Made by a program: the position numbers and the translations under genes. DNA of 64,000 nt from Nitrospinaceae bacterium (GTDB lineage: Bacteria; Nitrospinota; Nitrospinia; Nitrospinales; VA-1): contig BQJC01000001.1 in the NCBI GenBank assembly GCA_021604505.1, forward strand, positions 372,001-436,000, read 5' to 3'. Position 1 is the stretch's first letter; every line of letters starts with the position of its first letter. The notes under the pieces are model-generated. The model ran no database searches. It saw nothing but the letters and a program-made list of their open reading frames with translations, and had not been told where the DNA came from. Below, one piece after another: positions 8,949-24,989 of the stretch.

Positions 8949-10313
8949 GTGGATTATAGCAAAATCGGTCACGACAAAAAGGCCCTGTTGTGGCTCACAA
9001 TTCTATTATTGCCCTTTTTCCTGCTGGCGGGTTGCGGTGGTGGAGAAGATGAACCGGCTGGAAAAAAGAGGGGTTTTTCTCTTCCGGTTCAAGTTGGGAA
9101 AGTGGTCTATCTGGATGTGATGGATCAGGTTCGTGCGGTGGGAAATATTCAGGCCGATCAGCGGGTGGTGATCAACACTGAAGTGAAGGGGCTGGTGTCC
9201 GAAATTCCCGTTGAAGAGGGCATGCGGGTCAAAAAGGGCGCCCAGCTGGCTCGTATCGACACCCGCGAATACGAATTGGAACTGGACCGTCTGAAAACCG
9301 AACTCGCGGTGGCCGAAATTGAACACGACAAGGCCCAGGAAGGGCTTCGGCCTCAGGATAAAGAAAAACTGGAAGCTCAGGTCAATGCCGACGAAAGCGC
9401 CTGGGAGTTTGCGGTTAAAGAGAAAGAGCGATTCGAAAAGCTGATGGCCCAGGGGTTCGTTTCTCAATCTGAGCTGGATCAGGCCGTGGACCGCGCCCGC
9501 CGTGCCGGGGACGCCCTCAGAATCAGTAAGGCCGCTCTCAATGCAGGAATGAGTGCCCGCGTAGAGGATATACAACAAAAAAAATCCTCCGTGGAAGGAA
9601 TCCGCAAACGAATCGATATGGCTAAACTTGACCTGACCAAAACGTTTGTCAAAGCGCCTTTTGATGGCGTGGTCATTTCAAAAAGAATCGAGCAGGGTGC
9701 GTATGCCAGTGCCGGAACTCCCGTGGTGGAAATGATCGGTGCCGCACGCTTGAAAGCCGTTCTTGAAATGCCGCAGGGTTACCGCGGCAAATTGAGAACC
9801 TTGCAGGGCGTCGAATTCCTTGCTAAAGAGCTTGACCAAAAATTCAAATATGGAGGAAACCTGGCCAGAAACATCCGGGTCATTCCAGACGCTAATATTT
9901 ATTCCGGCAATATAAAGGTGCAAATCGATTTGCCGAAACCGGATCCGTCGTTGTTTCCAGGAGTGAACCTGGAAGCGCTCATGAATTTTGGCGTCCGAAA
10001 AAAAGTGCTGCATGTACCATCCATTTCCCTGGTGATCAGTGAACAGGGAACGGTGGTGTACATCATGAAAGATAAAAAGGCGCATCTGGTTCCGGTCAAG
10101 GCATACAAAGAACGCAACGAATATGTGGAGATAGAGGATTTCACCAAACAACTGGGACCCGATGCGGATTTGATTTTGCGGGGCTCCGGAGCGGTATTTC
10201 CTGGGGCCAACGTATTTCCCACGAATCTGTCTCCCGAGACGGAAACTCCGTTCAACGCCGCCTCGACGGATCCGAAAGCCGATACCCAACCGGCTGAATC
10301 GCCTGAAACCTGA
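8949..10313 (+). CDS. RND efflux periplasmic adaptor lipoprotein (HlyD/AcrA family)
   Basis: Membrane-fusion protein of 454 residues that links an inner-membrane RND pump to an outer-membrane channel. It has a lipoprotein signal (LLAGC, Cys29), a barrel-sandwich/lipoyl half (INTEVKGLVSEIPVEEGMRV), a long alpha hairpin at about 120-220 and the second lipoyl half (KTFVKAPFDGVVISKRIEQG). The usual beta-barrel and membrane-proximal domain follow. The start codon is GTG with little Shine-Dalgarno sequence; no better start lies near the lipobox. Its TGA overlaps the pump ATG by one base (TGATG), so the two are translationally coupled. No outer-membrane factor gene is adjacent; the channel must come from elsewhere. 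Confidence 0.88.
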   Translation: MDYSKIGHDKKALLWLTILLLPFFLLAGCGGGEDEPAGKKRGFSLPVQVGKVVYLDVMDQVRAVGNIQADQRVVINTEVKGLVSEIPVEEGMRVKKGAQLARIDTREYELELDRLKTELAVAEIEHDKAQEGLRPQDKEKLEAQVNADESAWEFAVKEKERFEKLMAQGFVSQSELDQAVDRARRAGDALRISKAALNAGMSARVEDIQQKKSSVEGIRKRIDMAKLDLTKTFVKAPFDGVVISKRIEQGAYASAGTPVVEMIGAARLKAVLEMPQGYRGKLRTLQGVEFLAKELDQKFKYGGNLARNIRVIPDANIYSGNIKVQIDLPKPDPSLFPGVNLEALMNFGVRKKVLHVPSISLVISEQGTVVYIMKDKKAHLVPVKAYKERNEYVEIEDFTKQLGPDADLILRGSGAVFPGANVFPTNLSPETETPFNAASTDPKADTQPAESPET

Positions 10314-13300
10314 TGAAGCTGATCGACCAATCCATTCGCAATTACCATACCGTGACCGTCATGGTTGTGCTCGCCGCCGCCGTGGGGATTTTTTGTTTCC
10401 AGATCCTCCCCAGACAGCTCACCCCCACCGTCGACAAACCCATCATCGAAGTGAGAACCGAGTATCGCGGTCTTTCTCCCAACGAAGTGGAGCGCAACAT
10501 CACCCGCCGCCTGGAGGAACAACTGGAGTCGGTGGAGGGATTGAAAAAAATGACCTCCCGCAGTCAGCACGGGTTGAGCACTATCACGATGGAATTCGAT
10601 TGGGGAACGGATAAGAACATCGCTACCATCGATGTGAACAACAAACTGCAGCAGGTGAAGGACCTGCCGGTTCTTTCGGACAAGCCGACATTAAAGTCCG
10701 TATCGAGTGACAACTCGAATCCGATCATGTGGATCGTCTTCGACAAACCCAATCCGAAGATGCCGGATCTCGATCAGAATTATATGTTCAAGGTCGGAGA
10801 GGACATCATCATTCCCACGTTGCTCAGGGTCACAGGAGTCGCCGATGTCTGGCACTTTGGCGGCGAAGAACGGGAGATGCGCGTGGAGTTCGACCCCTAC
10901 AGCATGGCCCGCCTGCATCTCACCTATGAAGACGTGATCCGCAGACTGTCTGAAGAAAACCAGAACACCCGCGCCGGTTTTCATGATGAAGAGAACCGTG
11001 AGTACACGGTAAGAACCCTGGGGGAATTCACCAGTGCCGAAGAAATTCTGAACACCGTGGTCAAGCGCGATGGAGACCGCACCATCATGGTCCGCGATTT
11101 TGCAACGGTGGTCGATGGCTACCAGCGCAGTGCTTCTTTGGTTCGCATCAGCGGCATGTTGTCCAATGCCTTTGGCGTCATCAGAAAACCGGGCGCCAAC
11201 GTGGTGGAAACCTGTAATCTGACAGCCCAGGCCGTGGCCGGTTTGAACAAGGAACTTCTCAGCCGTGGAATTCCTCTTAAACTGAATATCGTATACAAAG
11301 ATGTCGATTACATCGATGAGGCCATGCGCCTCGTCAAGTCCAACCTGGGGTTGGGCGCGATCCTCGCCGTCATTGTGCTTTTAGTGTTCCTGGGTTCCAT
11401 CCGGTCGGTCCTGATCGTTGCCATCAGCATACCTGTCAGTCTGGTGGCGGTTTTTATTATCCTCAAGCTTTTGGGGCGCAGTATCAACATCATATCGCTG
11501 GCGGGCATGGCTTTTGCCGTCGGCATGGTGGTGGACAACTCCATCGTGGTTTTGGAAAACATCTATCGTCACCTGACGATGAGAAAAGGAGTGATGAAGG
11601 CCGCATACGATGGAGCCGCCGAAGTGTGGGGCGCGGTGTTTGCTTCCACCCTGACCACCCTGGCGGTATTTGTTCCTATCGTATTCATTGAGGAAGAAGC
11701 GGGGCAGATGTTCAAAGACATCGCCATCACCATCAGCGCCAGCATTGCTCTGTCGCTTCTCGTCTCCATTGCCGTCATTCCCACCCTGACCACTCTCTTG
11801 ATACGGTTGAAACCAGGGGAGCCCTACCGGGCCGGGGTATTGCACCAGAAGATTTTAAAGCCGGTCATTTTCATGGGTGAAGGAATTAAAACGGGCTACA
11901 CAGCCCTGATACGAAAACTGCTGTCCCGGTCGCCGGCAAGCATAATGAGTAAAGTGGGGATACTTATAGGGGTGGTGTTTCTTCTTTGGTGGAGTACCGA
12001 GATTCTTCCAGAGCCTGACTACCTGCCGTATGGAAATACCAACATGGTTTTCATGATGATCGAACCGGTGGCGGGTGTTCCGGCGGAAAGGAACATGGAG
12101 TATTTCTCACCCTATGAAAAAAAGATCGTCAATATGGAAGATGTGACGCGTAATTTTCTGGTGTTTTCCCAGCGGTTCAACGGAGGCGGTGCGATCATCG
12201 ACCCGGAACTGGTTCACGGCCAGCGGGGAGAGGTGAAAATGGCCGTGAAATCCCAGGAAATGGGAAGCGAAATATTCAAGATTCCCGGTTACCGTTTTGC
12301 GTTTGCAGTGCAACGGCCGATTTTCCGGTCCGCGGACAAGACGTTTCAGGTCGAGATCACCGGACCCGACATGTTTAAGCTGAAGAGTATCGCCCAGCAA
12401 TTGATCGGTGACATATCAGGGATTCCCGGGGTTCATTCCGTTCGCCCGGAATTCAAATTCGGCAACCCCGAGCTTCGCTTCATCCCCAAGCGCGAACAGG
12501 CGGCCCGGCTGAATATGGGCATGAATTCCATCGGAGATATCGTCGAGTCCTTGAACGCGGGAAAATATCTGGGTGAGTTCAATGACCGGGGCGAACCGAT
12601 CGACTTCGTTTTTGTGCAAAAAAAAGATCGTCGAAAACTCAGCCTTCAGGACTATAAAGATTTGCCCATTTGGACTGAAGAAAACATGATGACTCACCTA
12701 GGGAATCTCGTGGATCTGGAGATCGACGCAGGTCCTGCGCGCATTGACCACATCGAAAAGGAACGGGCCATCAATCTCATGGTTCAAGTGAAAAAAGACG
12801 TTGCCATGCAGCATGTGATTAATCAAGTGGAAAAACAAGCCCTGGCCCCTGTCCGGCAGACGATGACCGAAGAGTTCGGCCTTCGCACCGGCGGTTCGGC
12901 GGACGAATTGACCTCGACCCAGAAATCCCTGTTGAACAGTTTTATCTATGCCATTGGGTTCATCTATCTATTGCTGGTGGCTTTATTTAAATCATTTCTT
13001 CGGCCCATCATCGTCATGCTCACAGTGACTTTCGCGGTCTCCGGTGCGTTCTTGGGGATTGTCGGCAACAACCTGATGCAGAGAGGTTTTATCCGGTCCA
13101 TTCTTGAAGATTGGAACGTCCCCAACGCCGAGGTCATGGCGTCTGGCTGGAACTGGATCACCTTTGACATCTTAACGCAGTTGGGCATCATCATTCTGGC
13201 CGGCATCGTGGTGAACAACGCCATACTCATCATTCACCAGATGCTCAACAATATCCGCGCTGGAATGGACGAGCGAAAAGCCCTGGAAGTCTCCTGCGAA

Positions 13301-13585
13301 ACCCGGCTTCGCCCTATCATGATGACCGTGATCTCAAGTGTCTTCGGCATGTTTCCCCTGGCTTTCGGGGAAGGAGCGGGAACAGAACTCTACCGCGGCA
13401 TGGGAACGGCACTCATCGGCGGACTGAGCGTTTCAGCGGTGTTCACGCTTTTTCTAGTGCCTGTATTGATTTCTCTCATGATGGACATGGGATTTCACAC
13501 TACCAAAGAAGACCTGGTTAAGGAGTCCCTCGACCGTGAACCCATTGCCGAAGGAATGCCCACCACCAATGCCCCTGCGGAATAG
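10313..13585 (+). CDS. RND family efflux pump permease (HAE1-like)
   Basis: Inner-membrane proton-driven exporter of 1090 residues, slightly longer than AcrB (about 1050). It has the usual twelve-span, two-porter-loop organisation. The N-terminus (IRNYHTVTVMVVLAAAVGIF) is span 1. Span 4 carries MVVDNSIVVLENIYRH, in which VDN replaces the VDD of AcrB, leaving one of the two acidic proton-relay residues. The second half repeats the pattern (GIVVNNAILIIHQM, with no acid there, as usual). It would export hydrophobic compounds or lipids through the adaptor at 8949. The substrate is unknown. The gene ends 24 bases before a good promoter for the next gene. Confidence 0.9.
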   Translation: MKLIDQSIRNYHTVTVMVVLAAAVGIFCFQILPRQLTPTVDKPIIEVRTEYRGLSPNEVERNITRRLEEQLESVEGLKKMTSRSQHGLSTITMEFDWGTDKNIATIDVNNKLQQVKDLPVLSDKPTLKSVSSDNSNPIMWIVFDKPNPKMPDLDQNYMFKVGEDIIIPTLLRVTGVADVWHFGGEEREMRVEFDPYSMARLHLTYEDVIRRLSEENQNTRAGFHDEENREYTVRTLGEFTSAEEILNTVVKRDGDRTIMVRDFATVVDGYQRSASLVRISGMLSNAFGVIRKPGANVVETCNLTAQAVAGLNKELLSRGIPLKLNIVYKDVDYIDEAMRLVKSNLGLGAILAVIVLLVFLGSIRSVLIVAISIPVSLVAVFIILKLLGRSINIISLAGMAFAVGMVVDNSIVVLENIYRHLTMRKGVMKAAYDGAAEVWGAVFASTLTTLAVFVPIVFIEEEAGQMFKDIAITISASIALSLLVSIAVIPTLTTLLIRLKPGEPYRAGVLHQKILKPVIFMGEGIKTGYTALIRKLLSRSPASIMSKVGILIGVVFLLWWSTEILPEPDYLPYGNTNMVFMMIEPVAGVPAERNMEYFSPYEKKIVNMEDVTRNFLVFSQRFNGGGAIIDPELVHGQRGEVKMAVKSQEMGSEIFKIPGYRFAFAVQRPIFRSADKTFQVEITGPDMFKLKSIAQQLIGDISGIPGVHSVRPEFKFGNPELRFIPKREQAARLNMGMNSIGDIVESLNAGKYLGEFNDRGEPIDFVFVQKKDRRKLSLQDYKDLPIWTEENMMTHLGNLVDLEIDAGPARIDHIEKERAINLMVQVKKDVAMQHVINQVEKQALAPVRQTMTEEFGLRTGGSADELTSTQKSLLNSFIYAIGFIYLLLVALFKSFLRPIIVMLTVTFAVSGAFLGIVGNNLMQRGFIRSILEDWNVPNAEVMASGWNWITFDILTQLGIIILAGIVVNNAILIIHQMLNNIRAGMDERKALEVSCETRLRPIMMTVISSVFGMFPLAFGEGAGTELYRGMGTALIGGLSVSAVFTLFLVPVLISLMMDMGFHTTKEDLVKESLDREPIAEGMPTTNAPAE

Positions 13586-13720: not shown

Positions 13721-14785
13721 ATGAAAAAAGTATTAGTTATGCTCGTTATTTTGTTTGGGGCCTACAACGTTATTTTTCTGGGGACCTTGCAAAATTATGA
13801 AAGTGGCCTGAATTCCGCGCAACAACAGGCCAACCGGATTTTTGACATACTTCATACTCAAGGCGCAAAAGCCGCCATTGAAGAGATTCCCCAAGTTCAG
13901 AACATCCAGGGGCCTGTTCGTCCGAAGCTCTGGTCGTTTAAGGCTCTGTTCGATTCCTTGTCGGGCGAGCAAACTTTCTACCCGGAAATTTCCAATCAGC
14001 TCAAAGTCATCATCGCAGTTCATAAAAATGATCTGGAAGGTTACGACCTGACCTGGATTGACCTCAGTGGAGCAAAGCTCAATGAAGCCAACTTGAAGGA
14101 GGCAAATTTAAGCGACACGAACCTTCAGGACACGGTTTTGGAAAGAGCGAATCTTGCCGGGGTGAGTTTTATAGGCAGCAAGCTCATCGGGACCGACTTC
14201 AGCAGGGCGGATCTCAGTGGAGCCAATTTCACCCGAGCCACAATAAAAAACGCGAGATTCACTCAGGCCATTCTTGATGACGCCGTTTTTGAAAAGGTGG
14301 ATGTCAATCATATGGATTTCAGCGGATTGAATTTCGAGCGGGTCAATTTTAAAAAATCGAACCTTGAAGAGACAGACTTTAGCCGGTCCAATCTCCAGCA
14401 AAGCGATCTCAGTCAGGCCGATTTGAGAAAGGCGGTTTTTTTTGTCGCGGACCTGAGCCGTTCCCGTCTCGTCGAAGTTGATTTGGAGGAGAGTGATCTT
14501 CGCGGGGCAACCCTGTCGGGAGCCGACCTGAGCCAGGCGAACCTCAGGAATGCCAATCTGAGTGGCGCCGATTTTACCGGGAGCGATCTCAGCGGTGTCG
14601 ATCTCAGCGGTGCGGATTTGAGCGGCACCACGTTAACAGCGGCTAAAATCGAAAAAGTAAAAAACCTCTCCTGCGAACAAATAGAATCTGCGGTTTTCGA
14701 TAGGCGAACCACGCAATTTCCCGACTACATCGACATCGCCTGGACCACCGAGGAAGCTTATACTTGTAAAAACGCTCAGGTTTAG
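13721..14785 (+). CDS. Membrane-anchored/exported pentapeptide-repeat protein with Cys-containing C-terminal cap
   Basis: Protein of 354 residues. Residues 1-22 form a hydrophobic anchor or signal (MKKVLVMLVILFGAYNVIFL), followed by a non-repeat helical region to about residue 105. Then come about 38 tandem pentapeptides of the A(D/N)LXX type (for example LSGADLSQANLRNANLSGAD), expected to form a right-handed quadrilateral beta-helix. The chain ends with a cap: NLSCEQIESAVFDRRTTQFP, then an I-x-W strand and a terminal YTCK. The same cap occurs in three genes at 46.5-48.4 kb. Pentapeptide proteins have no common activity; some bind gyrase, most are uncharacterised. It has its own promoter and no Shine-Dalgarno worth noting. 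Confidence 0.85.
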   Translation: MKKVLVMLVILFGAYNVIFLGTLQNYESGLNSAQQQANRIFDILHTQGAKAAIEEIPQVQNIQGPVRPKLWSFKALFDSLSGEQTFYPEISNQLKVIIAVHKNDLEGYDLTWIDLSGAKLNEANLKEANLSDTNLQDTVLERANLAGVSFIGSKLIGTDFSRADLSGANFTRATIKNARFTQAILDDAVFEKVDVNHMDFSGLNFERVNFKKSNLEETDFSRSNLQQSDLSQADLRKAVFFVADLSRSRLVEVDLEESDLRGATLSGADLSQANLRNANLSGADFTGSDLSGVDLSGADLSGTTLTAAKIEKVKNLSCEQIESAVFDRRTTQFPDYIDIAWTTEEAYTCKNAQV

Positions 14786-16551: not shown

Positions 16552-17166
16552 TCAGATCTTTCGCAATTGGGTTACGGAATGAGTGATTACATAAAATGCG
16601 GTTCGCAGGAATATAGTCGCAATTATCATTCCAACTGCTATGTCAGGTAAAACGGAATGCGTATAATGCACTAAAACCGCTGCCACGATGACTCCCAGGT
16701 TTCCGATCACATCATTCCGAGAACAGAGCCAAACTGATTGCATGTTGAGATTGTCTTCGCGGTTCCGAAGCAAAATCAAAAGGCATATTGTATTGGCGAT
16801 CAGTGCAATCCCGCCGGCCACTCCCATTGCAAGGGTGGACGGTTCTCCTCCGGACATTAGTTTCCCTAGAACCTCGAATATCACGCCGATTCCAAAAGCA
16901 GCTTGAATGATCCCTTTCAGCAAGGCGGCGCCCAACTGCCATTGATCGCTGCGTGCCAATACATAGAGACTGAAACTATAGGTCAAAAAATCTCCCAGCA
17001 TGTCGAGTGAATCGGCCAGCACGGCTGAAGAGTCTGCCCAAAGGCCCACGGAAAACTCAAACAAAAACATGAAAAAATTGATCCACAACACAATAACGAG
17101 AGCCTGGCGATGTTGGCCCCGCAATCGGCTCAGCTCTTCTTTTTTTAATTCACAGCAATCCGTCAT
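16552..17166 (-). CDS. Short CDF-type cation transporter
   Basis: Protein of 204 residues with about six membrane spans and the cation-diffusion-facilitator metal-site pattern: LADSLDMLGD in span 2 and SRNDVIGN in span 5. It should exchange protons for a divalent metal such as Zn, Co, Cd or Fe, exporting it to the periplasm. Unlike CzcD-type proteins (about 300 residues) it lacks the cytoplasmic C-terminal dimerisation domain; comparable short forms exist. It is the last gene of the metal-efflux operon, and its ATG overlaps the stop of the CusA-like gene (ATGA). A CDF at the tail of a Cu/Ag-type system is mixed in metal type, so the operon may handle more than one metal. Confidence 0.8.
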   Translation of the reverse strand: MTDCCELKKEELSRLRGQHRQALVIVLWINFFMFLFEFSVGLWADSSAVLADSLDMLGDFLTYSFSLYVLARSDQWQLGAALLKGIIQAAFGIGVIFEVLGKLMSGGEPSTLAMGVAGGIALIANTICLLILLRNREDNLNMQSVWLCSRNDVIGNLGVIVAAVLVHYTHSVLPDIAVGMIIATIFLRTAFYVITHSVTQLRKI

Positions 17167-20100
17167 TTGTTTTTATAAATTGGAATTTTCCACCAGGGGA
17201 TATTTCTCTTTGGGAGATCCTCCCATTTCTTGACAACCAGGTATAAAACAGGAATGACAATTAAAGTGAGGAGCGTGGATGAAACCATACCCCCGATCAT
17301 CGGGGCGGCAATCCGTTGCATGACTTCCGAGCCCGTTCCCTGACTCCACATGATGGGCAACAGACCGGCAATAATCGCAGACACCGTCATGATTTTAGGT
17401 CGCACTCTTTTTACCGCTCCCTCCATGACGGCTTCATGAAGGTCTTTTAGGGTTCGCATTTGACCAGCCTTTTTTCTTCGTTCATAGGCTTCGTCAATGT
17501 ACATCAGCATAATGACACCGGTTTCCGCGGCCACTCCGGCCAAAGCGATAATGCCCACCCAGACGGCGACACTCATGTGGTAATCAAGCAGATACAGTAT
17601 CATAACACTGCCGACCAGGGAAAAGGGAACAGAGAGAATAACGATGAGAGTTTTTGAGATGGACCCGAAATTCATGTAAAGCAGAATAAAAATGATCAGT
17701 AGGGTGAAAGGAATCATGGTTTTAAGTTTCTCTTTGGCTCGTTCCATGTATTGAAACTGTCCTGCCCAGACAAGGCGGTAACCGGCCGGTAGTTTTATCT
17801 GCTCCAGAATGGTTCTTTTGGCTTCCTTCACGTAGCTCCCGACGTCCCGGTCATTGATATCGACAAATACGAATCCGGCAAGCGAACCGTTTTCATCGCG
17901 AATGGAAGGCGGACCCGGTACCGTTTTGATTTCAGCAATCTGACTTATTGGAATATGCATTCCCAAAGGGGTAGAAACCAGGATCCGGTTTATAGCTTCA
18001 AGGTTATCCCTGTACTCCCTGCTATAACGGAGATTTACCGGGTATCGCTCCCTTCCTTCAATGGTGTGGGTGATGTTCTTCCCGCCGATGGCGGTTTCTA
18101 TCACATCTTCAACATCCTGAATGTTTAAACCGTATCTTGCGGCTTCCCGGCGGTTGATTACAAAATCGACGTAGCGGCCACCCACCACTCGTTCCGCAAA
18201 CACACTCCGGGTCCCTTCGATTTTTTTCAGGACCGGTTCCATTTCAATTCCGAGTTTCTCAATCACCTTCAAGTCCGGTCCTAAAATTTTTATGCCCAGA
18301 GTGCTGCGGATTCCCGTCGCCAGCATTTCCGTGCGTGTCTGAATGGGCATCCACCAGATATTTGGCATTCCGGGAATTTGAAGTTTGCTGTCCAGCTCGT
18401 CAATCATTTTTTCCCAGGTCATTTCAGGACGCCATTCCTCCCTGGGTTTGAACGTGATCACCGTTTCCACCATGTTTAGAGGCGCTGGATCGGTGGAAGT
18501 TTCCGCGCGACCCATTTTCCCGAACACATGGTCCACTTCAGGAACCGTTTTTATGACCTTGCCCTGAATATGCAGGATGCGGGAAGCTTCGCTGATTGAA
18601 ATGCCGGGAATGGCCGTAGGCATGTAGAGCATGGTTCCTTCATTTAATGGAGGCATGAACTCAGATCCCAGTTTTCCGAACAAAGGGAGAGTCAAAAGCG
18701 ACAGGATGACGGCAATTGCGAGGGTTGACTTTTTAAACTTCAATGCCGTCTGCACGCAGGGACGATAAATTGAAATTAGAAAGCGGTTGATGGGGTTTTT
18801 ATTTTCTGGAGTGATCCTGCCCTTGATCCAAAACACCATCAATATGGGAGCCAGGGTGATGGACAGCAACGAAGCAAACAGCATGGCAAATGTTTTGGTA
18901 AACGCCAATGGCTGGAACAACCTTCCTTCCTGAGCTTCCAGGGTGAATACGGGAATAAAAGAAACGGTAATTATTAACAGAGAAAAAAACAGAGGTTTGC
19001 CCACTTGCTTTGCCGCCTCTAGGATCACCGTGGTTCTGTCTGCCTCAGGCTTTTCTTCCAATTGCTTATGCGCATTCTCGATCATGACGATGGCCGCATC
19101 GATCATGGCCCCAATGGCTATTGCGATTCCTCCCAGTGACATGATATTGGCGGGAATATTCAGGAACAACATGGGAATAAAAGCCAATAGAATAGCTACA
19201 GGCAAAATCAAGATGGCGACCAGAGCACTTCGAATATGCCAAAGGAAGAGGAAGCAAACCAGACTGACAATGATCCCCTCTTCGATCAACGTCCGCATTA
19301 ACGTTTGAATGGCCTGCTGTATCAAGCCGGAACGGTCATAGGTAACAATTATTTCGACCCCCGGTGGCAGGGCGTTCTGTATTTCCGTTATTTTTTCTTT
19401 AATCCGGTTTATAACCTGAAGTTCATTTTCCCCATAGCGCATAACGACGATACCGCCGACGGTCTCGCCCTTGCCGTCCAGTTCCGCAAGCCCGCGTCTT
19501 ATTTCTGGACCAAAAGACACATTTCCGACGTCTCGGATAAATACAGGCGTTCCCTGTTTATCCGTGCCAACGGGGATATCGCGGATGTCCTCCAAAGACT
19601 GAATATACCCCCTTCCCCGAACCATATATTCCGATCCTGATGCCTCCAGAACTCTGGCGCCAACATCGTTGTTGCTTTTCTTTGTTGCTTCGATGATGGT
19701 TTTCAGGGGCAGGTCATACGCCAACAACGTTTCAGGGTTGACGGTGATCTGATATTGTTTGACGAACCCTCCCAGGCTTGCGACTTCCGCCACTCCCTCG
19801 ACACTTTCAAGCCAGTATTTTAATGTCCAATCCTGGAGCGACCGCAAATCAGCCAGATCGTGTTGTCCTGTTTCGTCCACCAGGGCATATTGATACACCC
19901 AGCCGGTTCCCGTTGCGTCCGGTCCTAAAGTGGGGGTCACGCCGGCAGGCAGACGACCGGTGATTTTTCCCATGTATTCCACCACCCGGCTTCTCGCCCA
20001 ATACATATCCGTATTATCTTTGAAAACGATGTAAACGTAGGAGACTCCCAGCTGGGAGACACCCCGGACAAATTTAACTTTTGGAGCCGCCACCATGCTG

Positions 20101-20312
20101 GATACGATCGGGTAAGTGATCTGGTCTTCAATGATATCCGGGCTTTTCCCGGGCCACTCGGTGAACACAATGACCTGAACATCCGAAAGATTGGGAATGG
20201 CCTCTAGAGGGGTTTGTTGCAGGCATCGATACCCCCAGGCGCTCAACATCAAAATGAACACCAAAACCAGGAATTTTTTCTGGACACAAAACTCGATGGT
20301 CTTCTCGATCAT
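17163..20312 (-). CDS. cusA: CusA/CzcA-family heavy-metal RND efflux pump
   Basis: Inner-membrane pump of 1049 residues, standard length for the heavy-metal RND family. The N-terminus carries the conserved LEAIPNLSDVQVIVFTEWPG region. Span 4 reads GAMIDAAIVMIENAHKQ, the signature seen in monovalent-metal (Cu(I)/Ag(I)) pumps, rather than the DGAVVMVEN type of Co/Zn/Cd CzcA proteins. The acidic residue in IDAA is the proton-relay Asp. It works with the adaptor at 20309 and an outer-membrane channel from the same operon to move metal out of the periplasm or cytoplasm. It overlaps both neighbours by 4 bases (ATGA). The metal assignment is inferred from motif and from the Met-rich adaptor. Confidence 0.9.
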   Translation of the reverse strand: MIEKTIEFCVQKKFLVLVFILMLSAWGYRCLQQTPLEAIPNLSDVQVIVFTEWPGKSPDIIEDQITYPIVSSMVAAPKVKFVRGVSQLGVSYVYIVFKDNTDMYWARSRVVEYMGKITGRLPAGVTPTLGPDATGTGWVYQYALVDETGQHDLADLRSLQDWTLKYWLESVEGVAEVASLGGFVKQYQITVNPETLLAYDLPLKTIIEATKKSNNDVGARVLEASGSEYMVRGRGYIQSLEDIRDIPVGTDKQGTPVFIRDVGNVSFGPEIRRGLAELDGKGETVGGIVVMRYGENELQVINRIKEKITEIQNALPPGVEIIVTYDRSGLIQQAIQTLMRTLIEEGIIVSLVCFLFLWHIRSALVAILILPVAILLAFIPMLFLNIPANIMSLGGIAIAIGAMIDAAIVMIENAHKQLEEKPEADRTTVILEAAKQVGKPLFFSLLIITVSFIPVFTLEAQEGRLFQPLAFTKTFAMLFASLLSITLAPILMVFWIKGRITPENKNPINRFLISIYRPCVQTALKFKKSTLAIAVILSLLTLPLFGKLGSEFMPPLNEGTMLYMPTAIPGISISEASRILHIQGKVIKTVPEVDHVFGKMGRAETSTDPAPLNMVETVITFKPREEWRPEMTWEKMIDELDSKLQIPGMPNIWWMPIQTRTEMLATGIRSTLGIKILGPDLKVIEKLGIEMEPVLKKIEGTRSVFAERVVGGRYVDFVINRREAARYGLNIQDVEDVIETAIGGKNITHTIEGRERYPVNLRYSREYRDNLEAINRILVSTPLGMHIPISQIAEIKTVPGPPSIRDENGSLAGFVFVDINDRDVGSYVKEAKRTILEQIKLPAGYRLVWAGQFQYMERAKEKLKTMIPFTLLIIFILLYMNFGSISKTLIVILSVPFSLVGSVMILYLLDYHMSVAVWVGIIALAGVAAETGVIMLMYIDEAYERRKKAGQMRTLKDLHEAVMEGAVKRVRPKIMTVSAIIAGLLPIMWSQGTGSEVMQRIAAPMIGGMVSSTLLTLIVIPVLYLVVKKWEDLPKRNIPWWKIPIYKNK

Positions 20313-21610
20313 TCAGTTTCTCCTTCGGTTTTTCTGCCCACCTGCATTTTCATAGTGCCGTCGGTTTTGGAATCGCTTCCTTCTCCCATTTTCATACCCT
20401 GCATTTCCCCCATATCCATTTCTCCCATCCGGGAATGCTCCATCTTCCAGTCCCCCATGCCAACCAGGCCCATCATTCCTTCCATCGTAGCCATCAATTG
20501 ACTTTCAGAATCCAGAAAGAAATTTGCCGAGCTGACCACCACATCCCCTTTGGTCAACCCATTTATAACGGGATAGTAGCCGTTTACCAGAGAACCGGTA
20601 GCCACCTCATTAGGGGAAAATATTCCCTTCCCCTGGCTGACGAACACGATATTGCGAATTCCGGAATGAAGGACAGCGCTTTCGGGTACGGCTAAATGAG
20701 TTCCTTTATCGACTTCAATTTGAATGTTCGTGAACATGCCGGGTTTTAATGTTTCATCCGAGTTCTCCATTTCTATTCGGACTTTGACACTACGCGTTTT
20801 AAGATTGAGGTTGGGATAAATGTAGGCGATGGTTCCTGAATAATAGCGCCCAGCGAAAGACTGGGAGGTGATCGTTACCTTTTGGCCCAGCTTGATAAAG
20901 GGCAGTTCATTCTCGTAAATGTCTCCGAGAATCCAAACCTTCTCAATGTCAGCAATTTGCAGAAGGGTCTGACCCGGTTTGACATGGCCTCCTTCAATGA
21001 TGGACTTGGAAATGATATACCCTGAGGTTGGCGAAAGAATATCAAGCAGGGTTTTGGGTTTTTTGCTCTTTTCCAACTGATCGATTTGGGATTGGGATAT
21101 ATCCCACAGCAATAATTTGGTTTTGGCTGAGGATTTCAGACTGGAACTGGTGCGACCGGAGGTGGTTAACAAATACTCCTCCTGGGCGTTGAGCAGTTCC
21201 GGGCTGTATAGTTTGAATAGAGGTTCTCCTTTCTGGACATATTTCCCCGTATAATCCGCGTATAATCGTTCTATCCACCCCTCGACTTTTAAATTAACCT
21301 CGCCCAGGCGTCTCTCATCGTATTCCACCCGGCCTACGGTCCGTAGGGTTTTAACCAGCTTCTTTTCCTGAACCGTGTATTTCTTGACCCCGATCAATTG
21401 CTGCTTCATGGGATTGATCATGACCGGCCCCCTGGAACCCTTCATAGGATCTATATAGGTATCGTTTTTCTCCACCACTGACGCAACAGCTTTTGGATCG
21501 TCAGAAGAATCTTTTTCGGCCAGGGCAGTGAAAACAAAACTCACAAAAAATAAAAGGGACAGCACAAAGAAAAAAGCTTTCCGGAATGGTTTATGATTTT
21601 TAGTTTTCAT
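20309..21610 (-). CDS. cusB: CusB-like periplasmic adaptor with methionine-rich C-terminal tail
   Basis: Efflux adaptor of 433 residues. A cleavable signal peptide ends VFTALA. The core follows CusB: an N-terminal PMKGSRGPVMINP metal-binding-like strand, the lipoyl/barrel-sandwich half VEGWIERLYADYTGKYVQKG, a hairpin, and the beta-barrel/proximal domains to about residue 370. The last 60 residues are unusual, with 14 methionines plus Asp, Glu and one His in repeats such as MGEMDMGEMQGMKMGEG. Such clusters bind Cu(I)/Ag(I), so this tail may replace the separate CusF chaperone, which is absent here. It overlaps the upstream TolC-like gene by 11 bases and the pump gene by 4. Confidence 0.88.
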   Translation of the reverse strand: MKTKNHKPFRKAFFFVLSLLFFVSFVFTALAEKDSSDDPKAVASVVEKNDTYIDPMKGSRGPVMINPMKQQLIGVKKYTVQEKKLVKTLRTVGRVEYDERRLGEVNLKVEGWIERLYADYTGKYVQKGEPLFKLYSPELLNAQEEYLLTTSGRTSSSLKSSAKTKLLLWDISQSQIDQLEKSKKPKTLLDILSPTSGYIISKSIIEGGHVKPGQTLLQIADIEKVWILGDIYENELPFIKLGQKVTITSQSFAGRYYSGTIAYIYPNLNLKTRSVKVRIEMENSDETLKPGMFTNIQIEVDKGTHLAVPESAVLHSGIRNIVFVSQGKGIFSPNEVATGSLVNGYYPVINGLTKGDVVVSSANFFLDSESQLMATMEGMMGLVGMGDWKMEHSRMGEMDMGEMQGMKMGEGSDSKTDGTMKMQVGRKTEGETE

Positions 21611-23147
21611 GTTTTACCTCAATCTGGGACAATCGCTTGCCCACCAATTGCTCTAAACGGGCTTTGTGTTGCCCGTGGTTTTTCAGAGCCCGTTGATAGT
21701 CGATGGCAAAATTTAACAGCGTGGTTTCCGCATCCAAAAGGCTTAGAAAATCTGTTTTCCCTGTCTTGTATTCTGCAACAGACACCTCCAATGCTTTTTG
21801 AGCCAGTGGCAGGAGAGATTTTTCATATAGCCGGACCGCCCGTTCGGCTTGATCCAGTTCATAGAAAAACTTTTTAACCTGGAACCGGAGTCCTTCTTTT
21901 TGATCGTCCCGTTTTTTCAGGAGTGCCTGGTAATTCAACCTGGCTTCCCGGATAAATGCATCGTTTTCTCCAAACCATAATTCAGGTTGTGTGTCAGGGG
22001 TGGTTTCAAAACTCTCGCCGGTTTTTACGGTTCCGACCCGGCTGCCTTTTCTGTCCTCAAAATAAGAAAATCCGGGTGTCAGGTCTGGATAGTATTTTTT
22101 CTCTGCCAGCTGAATAGCCATTTCGCTTTTCCTGATCTCTTCAATCAGCAATTTAAGCTCCTGCTGATGTTTGAAGGCGACCTCAATGAGCTCCAAAGCG
22201 GGGAGCCCAATAGAATTGAGAGCCTGGGAACCCGGTGGTTCAATGGGAAATGGAGAGCCGATATTAAAAAACCAGGCAAGTTTGGCCTCAACCACGCCTT
22301 TCTGCTCTTCAAGATTTATCAAGTCGTCTTTGAGTTTGGATATTTTTATCTGGGCTTTAATAATGTCGTTGAATCCTCCCTTCCCTGTTCGAAAATGGAC
22401 CGAGGCCACGGCTTCCAACTCTGTGAGCAGTTTAAGGTGTTCTTTTGTTATGCGAATGGCCTCTGGCAGATAGACCCATTCATAAAAAGTTTCCTTAAGT
22501 TGCGTCACCGTGTCCCTGATGGCGATTTCATATTTTTCCTTGGCGATTCTGACCTCCTGTTCAGCGATGCTGGCTTTAAGGGATAAAGCGCCGGGAAAAG
22601 GATAGGATTGTTTGATGGATGTCTGGTGTTGTTGGGTGCCCGCTTTGGTATCCAGTTCTTTAACGAAGGAGGAAAACTGGCCGAGAATATCCTCCAGTTG
22701 CACAACTTGCGAGTAACTCTCCAGCCTGGCTTCCAATTCTTTCTTTACCGATTGAAGATGAAGGTTTCTTAAATAAGTTACTTTTAAAAACGAAGGAATA
22801 TCTGGATGAGCGCTTAAAAAAGTAACTGTTTCATCCTGGCTGCTCCTCAAAGGCTCCATTTTTTTCTGATCCTCATCGGCCAGGTAAAAGAAGGATTCTT
22901 TTTTAAAAATCCCTTCAACCAATTGATCCCATCGCCCTTGAAGTTCATCCAGTTTGACATCCGTTTCAAGCGGCTCCAGCTGCGGTTCCGGTTGATCGGG
23001 TTCTGCCTTTAAAATGCTCTTTTGATAGGTGGAGCGAAATTTTTCAAACTCCGAGATCATTTTTTTATAGTCACCGTCCTCAGTCCACCCGGGGGTCACA
23101 ACCATCAAAGACAGGGACAGGAGCATTATGAACAGTAAGGATTTCAT
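21600..23147 (-). CDS. TolC-family outer-membrane protein (second copy in operon)
   Basis: Outer-membrane efflux protein of 515 residues with a signal peptide (LLSLSLMVVTPGWT). Two repeats of the TolC architecture are visible as long amphipathic helices ending in the usual family phrases (GGFNDIIKAQIKISKLKDDL in the first, KTDFLSLLDAETTLLNFAID in the second). It begins with an extra 150 or so residues that are charged and helical, making it longer than its neighbour. It would form a trimeric outer-membrane channel or act as an accessory factor. Its start overlaps the stop of the other TolC-like gene (ATGA) and its end overlaps the adaptor gene by 11 bases. Which of the two is the docking channel is not clear. 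Confidence 0.82.
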   Translation of the reverse strand: MKSLLFIMLLSLSLMVVTPGWTEDGDYKKMISEFEKFRSTYQKSILKAEPDQPEPQLEPLETDVKLDELQGRWDQLVEGIFKKESFFYLADEDQKKMEPLRSSQDETVTFLSAHPDIPSFLKVTYLRNLHLQSVKKELEARLESYSQVVQLEDILGQFSSFVKELDTKAGTQQHQTSIKQSYPFPGALSLKASIAEQEVRIAKEKYEIAIRDTVTQLKETFYEWVYLPEAIRITKEHLKLLTELEAVASVHFRTGKGGFNDIIKAQIKISKLKDDLINLEEQKGVVEAKLAWFFNIGSPFPIEPPGSQALNSIGLPALELIEVAFKHQQELKLLIEEIRKSEMAIQLAEKKYYPDLTPGFSYFEDRKGSRVGTVKTGESFETTPDTQPELWFGENDAFIREARLNYQALLKKRDDQKEGLRFQVKKFFYELDQAERAVRLYEKSLLPLAQKALEVSVAEYKTGKTDFLSLLDAETTLLNFAIDYQRALKNHGQHKARLEQLVGKRLSQIEVKHEN

Positions 23148-24460
23148 TTTTTGTTCTCCTTATTCTTGGCAATTTCCAGATTCACCCCGATCAATTTTTC
23201 CATTCTGGCTATATGTTGAAAGTAATCCGCCAGACCCCGCTGATAGGCCAGTTGAAAGTTCAGCCAGGTTGATCTGGCCTCAAGAAGTCCGGCAAAACTG
23301 CCCTTGTTTTGTTTGTGCCAGGTTTCTGCAAGGTCCAAAGACTGCAATGCCTGGGGAATTAAGGATTCTTTATACAACCGGACCAGTCTGCTGGAGTTTT
23401 GGATTTTAAAATAGATTTTATTGATTTCCGCGAAGGCTCTATTTTGCAGATCTTTTTTCTCATATTCCAAAGCCTGCAGATTGTTTTGGGCCTCAGAAAC
23501 TCTTGCACGGTTCTTGCCCAACCAAATCGGAACATTGATGCCGACAAAAACCCCCAACCCCTGATCCAAATTGATTCGATTATTTTCAAACCATTTGAAT
23601 GAAGTCCTGAAGTCGGGGTAGTATTTCTTTTCAGCAAGCCGGATCTTATGGCGGCTTTTTTCCATCTCAAACCCATTAATGTGAAGTTCCTGCTGGTACT
23701 CCCGCACCATTTCGTACATCTGGTTTAATTCGAGATTAAAGGGAACGTATGGGACGTCTCTGGGTTTTCCTATGGGCTGGGCGGGCGGCAGATCCAGAAG
23801 GGCGTTGATATGCGCAACCTCATTCGAACGCAACTCGATGAGCAAAATGAGATCATTGTCCAACTGGGCTAGTTGAGATTGGGCCTTCAACACATCGTTC
23901 AGTGTCGTGGCATGTGCCGAATAGTGTGTTGCGGAAATTTTGGCAAGATGTTCCGCCAGCTTTTTGTTGCTGCGGATTATGTGAATGGCCCTGTCCATGT
24001 ATAACAGCTCGTGGTATCCAATCTCCAGCTCAGCCAACAAATCCCGGGTGGCAATTTCAAACTGGGTCCTCGCAACCTTGACGTCCTGAGAAACGATATC
24101 GCCCTCAATCTTGAGTTTTCCCGGAAAAGGAAATTTTTGCGATATCCAGTAGATGGTATTTCTGGTTTCATCCAGATCAAAATCTGTGGGAATGTTCCAG
24201 GTATCAATCCCGATTTCAGGATCATCCAACGCGGTCACCTGCGGGTACCGTTCGATGACAGCCTTCCATTTTGCCTTTGCGGCTTTCAACCCTGGATTCC
24301 GGTCAAAAGCAATCGCATGGAGGTTTTTTAAGGAAACCTCGTTCTTTAAAATGAGTTGAATTTCCGGCTCGTTGGCATGCGCGAATGACCATGCAACATT
24401 AAAAGCCAGGAAAAAACAAAATATCGCAATGAGTATTCGTTGCAGACACATTTGTCCCAC
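23144..24460 (-). CDS. TolC-family outer-membrane protein of the metal-efflux operon (CusC-like)
   Basis: Protein of 438 residues, the usual TolC/CusC length, with a signal peptide (ILIAIFCFFLAFNVAWSFA). It has two outer-membrane efflux repeats: helices around ATTLNDVLKAQSQLAQLDND and KGSFAGLLEARSTWLNFQLA. It should form the outer-membrane tunnel for metal export. The ATG is preceded by AAGAGGTGGGAC, a good ribosome-binding site. It lies 103 bases downstream of the Cys-rich protein gene and is coupled to the second TolC-like gene by a 4-base overlap. The homologous phrases in the two TolC-like proteins suggest an old duplication, with considerable divergence since. Confidence 0.85.
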   Translation of the reverse strand: MGQMCLQRILIAIFCFFLAFNVAWSFAHANEPEIQLILKNEVSLKNLHAIAFDRNPGLKAAKAKWKAVIERYPQVTALDDPEIGIDTWNIPTDFDLDETRNTIYWISQKFPFPGKLKIEGDIVSQDVKVARTQFEIATRDLLAELEIGYHELLYMDRAIHIIRSNKKLAEHLAKISATHYSAHATTLNDVLKAQSQLAQLDNDLILLIELRSNEVAHINALLDLPPAQPIGKPRDVPYVPFNLELNQMYEMVREYQQELHINGFEMEKSRHKIRLAEKKYYPDFRTSFKWFENNRINLDQGLGVFVGINVPIWLGKNRARVSEAQNNLQALEYEKKDLQNRAFAEINKIYFKIQNSSRLVRLYKESLIPQALQSLDLAETWHKQNKGSFAGLLEARSTWLNFQLAYQRGLADYFQHIARMEKLIGVNLEIAKNKENKK

Positions 24461-24563
24461 CTCTTATCTAAAAATTTAAAATTGACAGGGGAAAACGCTT
24501 GCTCGGTTTAAGGCTAAAATAGACAGACTCGACCCCAAACAAGCAGCAAAAGAGAGGAAACGT

Positions 24564-24989
24564 TTAAATCAGAAGGCTGGAGTGTTCGAGATAGATCGGC
24601 CCCGACCGGGGAGGTTGCGGAGGGTGTTCCCGGAAATCCCAGGAAGGGGATTGAATGGAAATCCAATTAAGAACTGCAGTCCCCTGAATGAGTTTTAAAC
24701 TCACGGGAACAACTTGTGATTTTAAGCTGTTTAGTGTGGGGGCTTTGTGGTCATCACGGAAAATTTTCTGTGCACAGGAGTTTTGGCAACAATTTACAGG
24801 ATCGCTCTCGGAATTTTTTTTGTGAGACCCGTGGCAATCTTCCTTTGGAGTGCTTTTGATATGATGTGCGCAAAACTTTTTGCAGCATAGCTTGGCCTGG
24901 GCATAAGACACAGGAGCCTTCACAGGAATAATTAATGAAAGAAGAATCACTCCCAGAATCAGCTTAAATATAAGATTTCCTTTTCGCAT
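24564..24989 (-). CDS. Small Cys/His-rich exported protein heading the metal-efflux operon
   Basis: Protein of 141 residues with a signal peptide (hydrophobic 8-22, cleavage near SYAQA). The mature N-terminal half holds seven cysteines (35, 36, 40, 52, 67, 68, 72) and four nearby histidines in patterns CCKKFCAHH and DCHGSH, well suited to binding soft metals. The C-terminal half is hydrophobic/Pro-rich and ends HPPQPPRSGPIYLEHSSLLI, a tail typical of small uncharacterised proteins found beside heavy-metal RND operons. I infer a periplasmic metal-binding or sensing role. It is the first gene of a minus-strand run reaching 16552. The metal and the true function are not proven by sequence. Confidence 0.72.
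   Translation of the reverse strand: MRKGNLIFKLILGVILLSLIIPVKAPVSYAQAKLCCKKFCAHHIKSTPKEDCHGSHKKNSESDPVNCCQNSCAQKIFRDDHKAPTLNSLKSQVVPVSLKLIQGTAVLNWISIQSPSWDFREHPPQPPRSGPIYLEHSSLLI

Follow-up and report, generated by a model that had tools for sequence, protein, structure and literature searches.

A Cus-type metal-efflux operon of a Nitrospinaceae bacterium encodes two TolC-family paralogues with complementary signature losses

In TolC-family channels, a single polypeptide is assumed to have two jobs, spanning the outer membrane and docking to the pump. Why does a single metal-efflux operon encode two of them? The operon is located at 16552-24989 on the minus strand of a 64,000-nucleotide stretch from the genome of an uncultured Nitrospinaceae bacterium in the phylum Nitrospinota (the window, G000:C1:372001-436000, where G000 is the genome; other G numbers are genomes and L numbers are loci used for comparison). 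Six open reading frames (ORFs) were confirmed, with overlaps of 4, 11, 4 and 4 bases. The tight six-gene packing proposed by an earlier reading of the DNA letters alone (the sequence-only reading) was thereby reproduced in place, strand and overlaps. According to Pfam and NCBIfam profiles, the genes encode an exported Cys/His-rich protein, two outer-membrane factors (OMFs) called here OEP1 and OEP2 (outer-membrane efflux proteins), a CusB-type adaptor, a CusA-type resistance-nodulation-division (RND) pump and a short cation diffusion facilitator (CDF). The pump, the adaptor, the leader and the CDF are ordinary, and the OMF pair is the unusual part. Feature coordinates below refer to the minus strand unless a plus sign is given.

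OEP1 (23144..24460) has 438 residues when read from a GTG codon (an ATG lies three codons on), and OEP2 (21600..23147) has 515 residues. Both score far above the PF02321 cut-off of 22 bits, at 119 and 129 bits, respectively. OEP1 belongs to the TolC/CusC family by this profile and by its normal outer-membrane strand signatures. OEP2 is a homologue of the same family, but the four strands are not all recognizable in its sequence, since every OEP2 has lost the signature of strand 4 and the DP of strand 1. Signature columns were counted over 89 proteins, comprising eight OEP2, nine OEP1-clade proteins (seven of them paired with an OEP2) and 72 ordinary OEPs. The strand-1 signature DPEIGIDTWNIP is retained in OEP1 (24188..24223), and its DP occurs in all nine OEP1-clade proteins and in 71 of 72 ordinary OEPs. 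The same position of OEP2 is now DILGQFSSFVKE (22656..22691), where DP occurs in 0/8; the strand-1 Pro by itself is present in 0/8 OEP2 proteins versus 81/81 of the others. According to the column counts, the strand-4 signature LGVFVGINVPIW is also retained in OEP1 (23522..23557). In OEP2 this position has become the hydrophilic, proline-containing FETTPDTQPELW (21975..22010). The mean hydropathy of the segment is -0.64 in OEP2 with 23% charged residues, versus +1.09 with 2% in OEP1 and +0.96 with 1% in ordinary OEPs. The centre of the OEP2 segment is Pro in seven of the eight proteins, and the outward Ile, Val and Leu are replaced by Thr, Asn and Pro.

These columns bear on one possible answer, in which OEP2 still forms a complete channel in the outer membrane, though with unusual strands, and one pump has two alternative exits. 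The PF02321 score, the retention of strand 3 and the PFPG motif, and the Foldseek matches of a moderate-confidence model to TolC and CusC are all consistent with such a channel. Nevertheless, the hydrophobic face of strand 4 is gone, with a proline in nearly all members, and none has the strand-1 DP. A second exit would also leave the changes in OEP1 described next unexplained, and we consider it unlikely.

The periplasmic tips show the opposite distribution. In OEP2, the first tip HFRTGKGGFNDIIKAQ (22350..22397) is retained, as are the turn Gly, gate Leu and Asp of the second tip EYKTGKTDFLSLLDAE (21726..21773). Over the eight OEP2 proteins the turn glycines are present in 7/8 and 8/8, the gate Leu in 8/8 and the Asp in 8/8. 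In the first tip of OEP1, HYSAHATTLNDVLKAQ (23879..23926), the turn glycine is gone (0/7 paired OEP1, 67/72 ordinary OEPs). In the second, WHKQNKGSFAGLLEAR (23273..23320), the turn glycine is also gone, the gate Leu is replaced by Ala and the Asp by Glu. All seven paired OEP1 proteins keep the strand signatures and have lost both turn glycines (0/7 and 0/7); their gate Leu is Ser, Ala or Thr (Leu in 0/7, versus Leu or Ile in 64/72 ordinary OEPs), and their Asp is Glu. In a profile alignment, the second-tip columns of OEP2 correspond to TolC G365, V370 and D374. In CusC, Leu403 closes the periplasmic end and Asp407 forms another ring, and each monomer contributes four strands to the barrel (PMC3017539). 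From the TolC alignment and the spacing, the OEP tip columns presumably correspond to this Leu403 and Asp407. Since OEP2 has lost strand signatures and OEP1 has lost the adaptor/gate tip, the two proteins look like complementary halves, not like two channels.

We therefore propose that the OMF was split after a gene duplication into two cooperating paralogues. This is the most likely mechanism, and we put its probability at about one half. OEP1 would be a 12-strand outer-membrane pore that has lost the normal adaptor-facing gate. OEP2 would have given up the membrane strands and gained a helical head, keeping an adaptor-facing helical tip with the Leu/Asp gate. The metal moved by CusA, Cu(I)/Ag(I), would enter a conduit that CusB seals onto OEP2, and OEP1 would take over from OEP2 or be braced by it. 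In a specific form of the split, OEP2 would be a helical barrel standing free in the periplasm, in series between CusB and OEP1; this would give a four-part conduit CusA-CusB-OEP2-OEP1 with the pore and the docking gate on separate proteins. Such an arrangement is possible, though we hold it tentatively. The sequences show the class of the pump, the duplication, the joint inheritance of the pair, the reciprocal signature losses and purifying selection, whereas a three-dimensional OEP2 without a barrel, its presence in one complex with OEP1 and the order of the parts are inferred.

The head of OEP2 (about residues 24-113; 22809..23078) extends about 75-90 residues beyond ordinary OEPs, and the stretch ahead of the conserved NP position measures 127-149 residues in OEP2 versus 41-74 in ordinary relatives. 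The sequence-only reading had noted the second TolC for an extra head of 150 residues. The protein is indeed unusual; the size of the head had to be reduced to the above excess, and the peculiarity goes beyond the head to the lost strand signatures and to the adaptor/gate tip lost by the first TolC.

A head of this kind, predicted to be helical, together with the lost strand signatures, would also suit a non-conduit accessory, that is, a barrel-less TolC relative that stabilizes, gates, anchors or helps to assemble OEP1. The known case is the lipoprotein YbjP, a tightly bound accessory of E. coli TolC (PMC13082787), which offers a precedent by analogy. Like YbjP, OEP2 would be a second protein on an outer-membrane factor, but YbjP is unrelated to TolC, whereas OEP2 is a TolC paralogue that keeps the adaptor-facing tip. 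The OEP2 of L052 (9740-11302) has a possible lipobox, LFASC, and may thus be lipid-anchored, which would also fit an accessory. However, exactly the adaptor-facing turns and gate residues are kept in OEP2 and lost in OEP1, and a brace alone would not need them. An accessory role is accordingly a minor possibility in our judgement.

For the split of the OMF, a further pair gave a later comparison. The ten-column pattern was fixed before the pair of G332 was found. In the G332 OEP2, the DP position reads N/I, strand 4 reads P/T/T and the tips read G/G/L/D, and the G332 OEP1 has D/P, F/L/I/P and D/K/A/E; thus both proteins show the expected state in all ten columns. With G332 added, the strand signatures are lost in all nine OEP2 proteins, whose tip turns are of the YxxG type at 17 of 18 positions; all eight paired OEP1 proteins keep the strands, and none has either tip glycine or the gate Leu. 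L058 encodes an OEP1-clade protein with both strands and canonical tips, and zero OEP2 hits were obtained in its genome, which is a metagenome-assembled genome (MAG). The tip state thus appears to track the presence of OEP2, on the strength of a single event (L058).

Several points weigh against the split. OEP2 still has a normal-looking strand 3 and, in part, strand 2. The signature changes are common by descent, and the independent events are therefore few. The absence of OEP2 from L058 is weak evidence because of the long branch of the L058 protein and the MAG status of its genome. The correspondence of the tips to Leu403 and Asp407 is indirect, through the TolC alignment and the spacing. 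Finally, the structure predictions do not decide the matter. AlphaFold, run with five sequences, gave OEP2 a TolC-like, nearly all-helical model (mean predicted local distance difference test score, 67), with a helical head of partly low confidence, and in Foldseek this moderate-confidence model matched TolC, OprM, SilC and CusC. At matched depth, however, the OEP1 control also built no strands. The model was therefore rejected as proof of a lost barrel; because the control failed, the missing strands in the OEP2 model are no evidence, and the case rests on sequence. A PDB sequence search with OEP1 or OEP2 alone gave no hits; in a PDB profile search, OEP2 reached VceC/TolC, and OEP1 gave only a weak OprJ match.

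The phylogenetic tree indicates that a single ancient duplication gave rise to OEP1 and OEP2, which were then inherited together. The OEP2 clade has a support of 100/100, the OEP1 clade (including L058 and G028) has 97/98, and the two are sisters with 100/99. The L058 protein nests beside the OEP1 of the window (97/99) on its long branch. Complete OEP1-OEP2 neighbours are found at eight loci (the window, G004, L048, L049, L050, L052, L053 and G332), where G004 is a relative of the same genus; at L051, OEP2 lies at a contig edge with OEP1 out of view. OEP2 adjoins OEP1 wherever the upstream side is visible. A CusB-like gene is located downstream of the pair in the window, G004, L048, L049, L050 and L052, and about 3 kb on in L053; in G332 the contig ends.

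OEP2 is rare. Its head was detected in 5/77 genomes of the phylum set, one of the five (G028) being only a weak match through OEP1. Among 246 genomes from the phylum to which G079 belongs, there was one clear case, and a second weak hit covered the shared OEP part only; in a further group, 3/9 genomes were positive. A scan of the collection gave seven OEP2-type loci among 80 kept, and at the remaining loci one OEP accompanies CusB/CusA where both are visible. In G028 (G028:C21; L042 11474-12844), an OEP1-type protein has degenerate tips, and the contig ends just after the gene. The split model predicts an OEP2 immediately after this OEP1.

Rarity, with absence from most relatives, could suggest a redundant duplicate heading for loss. 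Against the orthologue in G004, OEP2 gave a nonsynonymous divergence (dN) of 0.092 and a synonymous divergence (dS) of 0.666 (dN/dS ~0.14), its head gave 0.180 and 0.660, and OEP1 gave 0.068 and 0.653 (dN/dS ~0.10). These values indicate that OEP2 is under purifying selection, the head less so. The reading frames are open at all loci uncut by a contig edge, and identical changes are found across Nitrospinota, Nitrospirota and the further group at 34-40% identity. A decaying duplicate was rejected on the dN/dS ratio and the distant conservation, and is highly improbable.

What metal would pass through such a system? The pump (17163..20312; 1049 residues) belongs to the CusA/CzcA heavy-metal RND family (TIGR00914, 1201 bits; cut-off, 701 bits), and E. 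coli CusA aligns with it over the full length with 1176 bits. In the alignment with CusA (3t51), M564, M614 and M663 correspond to CusA M573, M623 and M672, and D405, E930 and K973 correspond to the proton-relay residues D405, E939 and K984, K973 being read in RVRPKIMTV just beyond the displayed end of the alignment. The three key methionines and the proton-relay residues are conserved, and therefore Cu(I)/Ag(I) export, which the sequence-only reading had suggested, is supported, as is the placement of the pump in the Cu(I)/Ag(I) branch of heavy-metal RND pumps. The proposed lack of CusF also held genome-wide: PF11604 gave zero matches in the window genome, whereas the control search found CusF in E. 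coli, and a complete CusCFBA set is thus not present. A second CusA (58% identical) is encoded elsewhere in the same genome beside one OEP whose strands and gate Leu are normal; the second Cus-type operon at G000:C2:446000-462000 (L143) consists of an OEP, a 638-residue CusB-sized ORF and CusA, with normal single-OEP signatures. Oversized CusA homologues of about 1170-1300 residues (usually about 1050) were observed at L048 (13648-17433), L050 (9490-13011), L055, L059, L065, L077 and L086. They partly adjoin OEP pairs, and the extra sequence in L048 has no Pfam name.

The adaptor (20309..21610; 433 residues) is of the CusB type according to HlyD_D23 (2.4e-76) and its closest structural relative, CusB (best PDB match, 3ne5_B); the NCBIfam CusB model scores it at 139.5, below the cut-off of 390. 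Its last 60 residues (20312..20491) lie outside the CusB fold and contain 13 Met, not 14 as first counted, with a binomial probability of about 1e-7 if Met makes up 3.5% of residues. The tail is thus real, and it is not peculiar to the window, being found in the close homologue of G004 and in the L058 adaptor (12 Met in 48 residues). It has been suggested that this tail is the key novelty of the operon and stands in for CusF. The genome has no CusF, the tail is kept in G004 and L058, and SilB of Cupriavidus metallidurans CH34, with its C-terminal CusF-like domain, is an analogous precedent for an adaptor-borne chaperone (PMC4446572). Both adaptors have a C-terminal extension, metal-binding in SilB (PMC4446572), but that of SilB is a folded CusF-like domain, whereas that of the window is a short Met-rich tail without a recognizable fold. 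Moreover, the tail is not linked to the OEP pair. L058 has it, with only one TolC detectable in the operon, comparable Met-rich ends occur in other CusB lineages (Zetaproteobacteria and the Geobacter type), and the remaining two-OEP operons are without the short tail and have, where tested, HMBD or DUF3347 domains instead (N-terminal HMBD and C-terminal DUF3347 in the CusB of L048, 11586-13610; HMBD in that of L052). As a hallmark of the two-TolC arrangement the tail is therefore weakened, and as the defining oddity it was rejected; that it is the main novelty of the operon and takes the place of CusF remains a tentative idea, rather improbable on balance. Because CusF is absent and SilB gives a precedent, metal-gathering by the tail is plausible, and the tail and the N-terminal Met of the adaptor would probably collect metal for CusA without CusF. 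The tail is an addition, not a rival to the core proposal, because metal binding may still occur.

The first gene (24564..24989) encodes an exported leader of 141 residues with a Sec-type signal, two CCxxxC motifs (LCCKKFC and NCCQNSC) and a Pro-rich C-terminus. A 71% identical ORF is found at its position in G004, and many related operons have small exported Cys-rich ORFs ahead of the OEP. CutF-like proteins, whose genes often precede metal genes, regulate translation according to Cu (PMC9973294). By inspection, the leader shares with CutF of Rhodobacter capsulatus, CopL and CzcI the signal peptide, CxxxC, the Pro-rich C-terminus and the place upstream of metal genes (PMC9973294), but differs from them in lacking a DUF2946 hit. 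It had no match to Pfam or NCBIfam, DUF2946 included, even at E = 1, and a DUF2946/CzcI assignment by profile was thus rejected. The exported Cys/His-rich protein is present as described before, but it looks more like a CutF/CopL-like copper-sensing leader than a chaperone. The intergenic region 24460-24563 can form hairpins, with a fold z of -0.24 (-0.87 for a longer stretch), which is not significant; the G004 counterpart has z of -2.47, but with a different hairpin. A hairpin masking the Shine-Dalgarno sequence upstream of OEP1 is thus a candidate at most.

The last gene (16552..17166) encodes a short CDF transporter of 204 residues, which consists of the transmembrane part only (PF01545, 71.5 bits, profile positions 1-197 of 198) and has no cytoplasmic C-terminal domain. 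When the six-gene order was sought in relatives, G004 matched the first five genes at 70-91% identity, and the CDF stood in this place only in the window. The G004 contig stops inside cusA with the sixth position out of view, and a genome search found no CDF of the window type in G004. As the homologue in G006 (72% identical) is about 0.48 Mb away from the Cus operon there, the CDF of the window is probably a local addition. Elsewhere in the window, 10313-13585 (+) encodes a separate RND pump (ACR_tran), and a downstream ORF at 13721-14785 (+) has many pentapeptide-like ALSGADL repeats.

Two known systems frame the operon. The order of czcICBAD of Cupriavidus metallidurans, namely exported leader (I), OMF (C), adaptor (B), divalent-metal pump (A) and CDF (D) with one OMF, is shared by the window, which differs in the OMF pair and the Cu/Ag methionines. 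With E. coli CusCFBA, the window shares the same three periplasmic Met and the proton relay in CusA, a CusB-type adaptor and a CusC-family OMF; it differs in the two OMF paralogues with reciprocal losses, the Met-rich adaptor tail, the CutF-like leader, the terminal CDF and the lack of CusF. No report of tandem OMF genes or barrel-less TolC relatives was found in the part of the literature that was searched. Even in the role of an accessory, OEP2 is a relative of TolC with an incomplete barrel signature, for which that literature gave no report. If the OMF has indeed been split, the natural pair would separate docking and gating residues from pore residues experimentally, structural studies would gain a natural helical part of TolC that is soluble, and tripartite pumps would be shown to be able to turn four-part.

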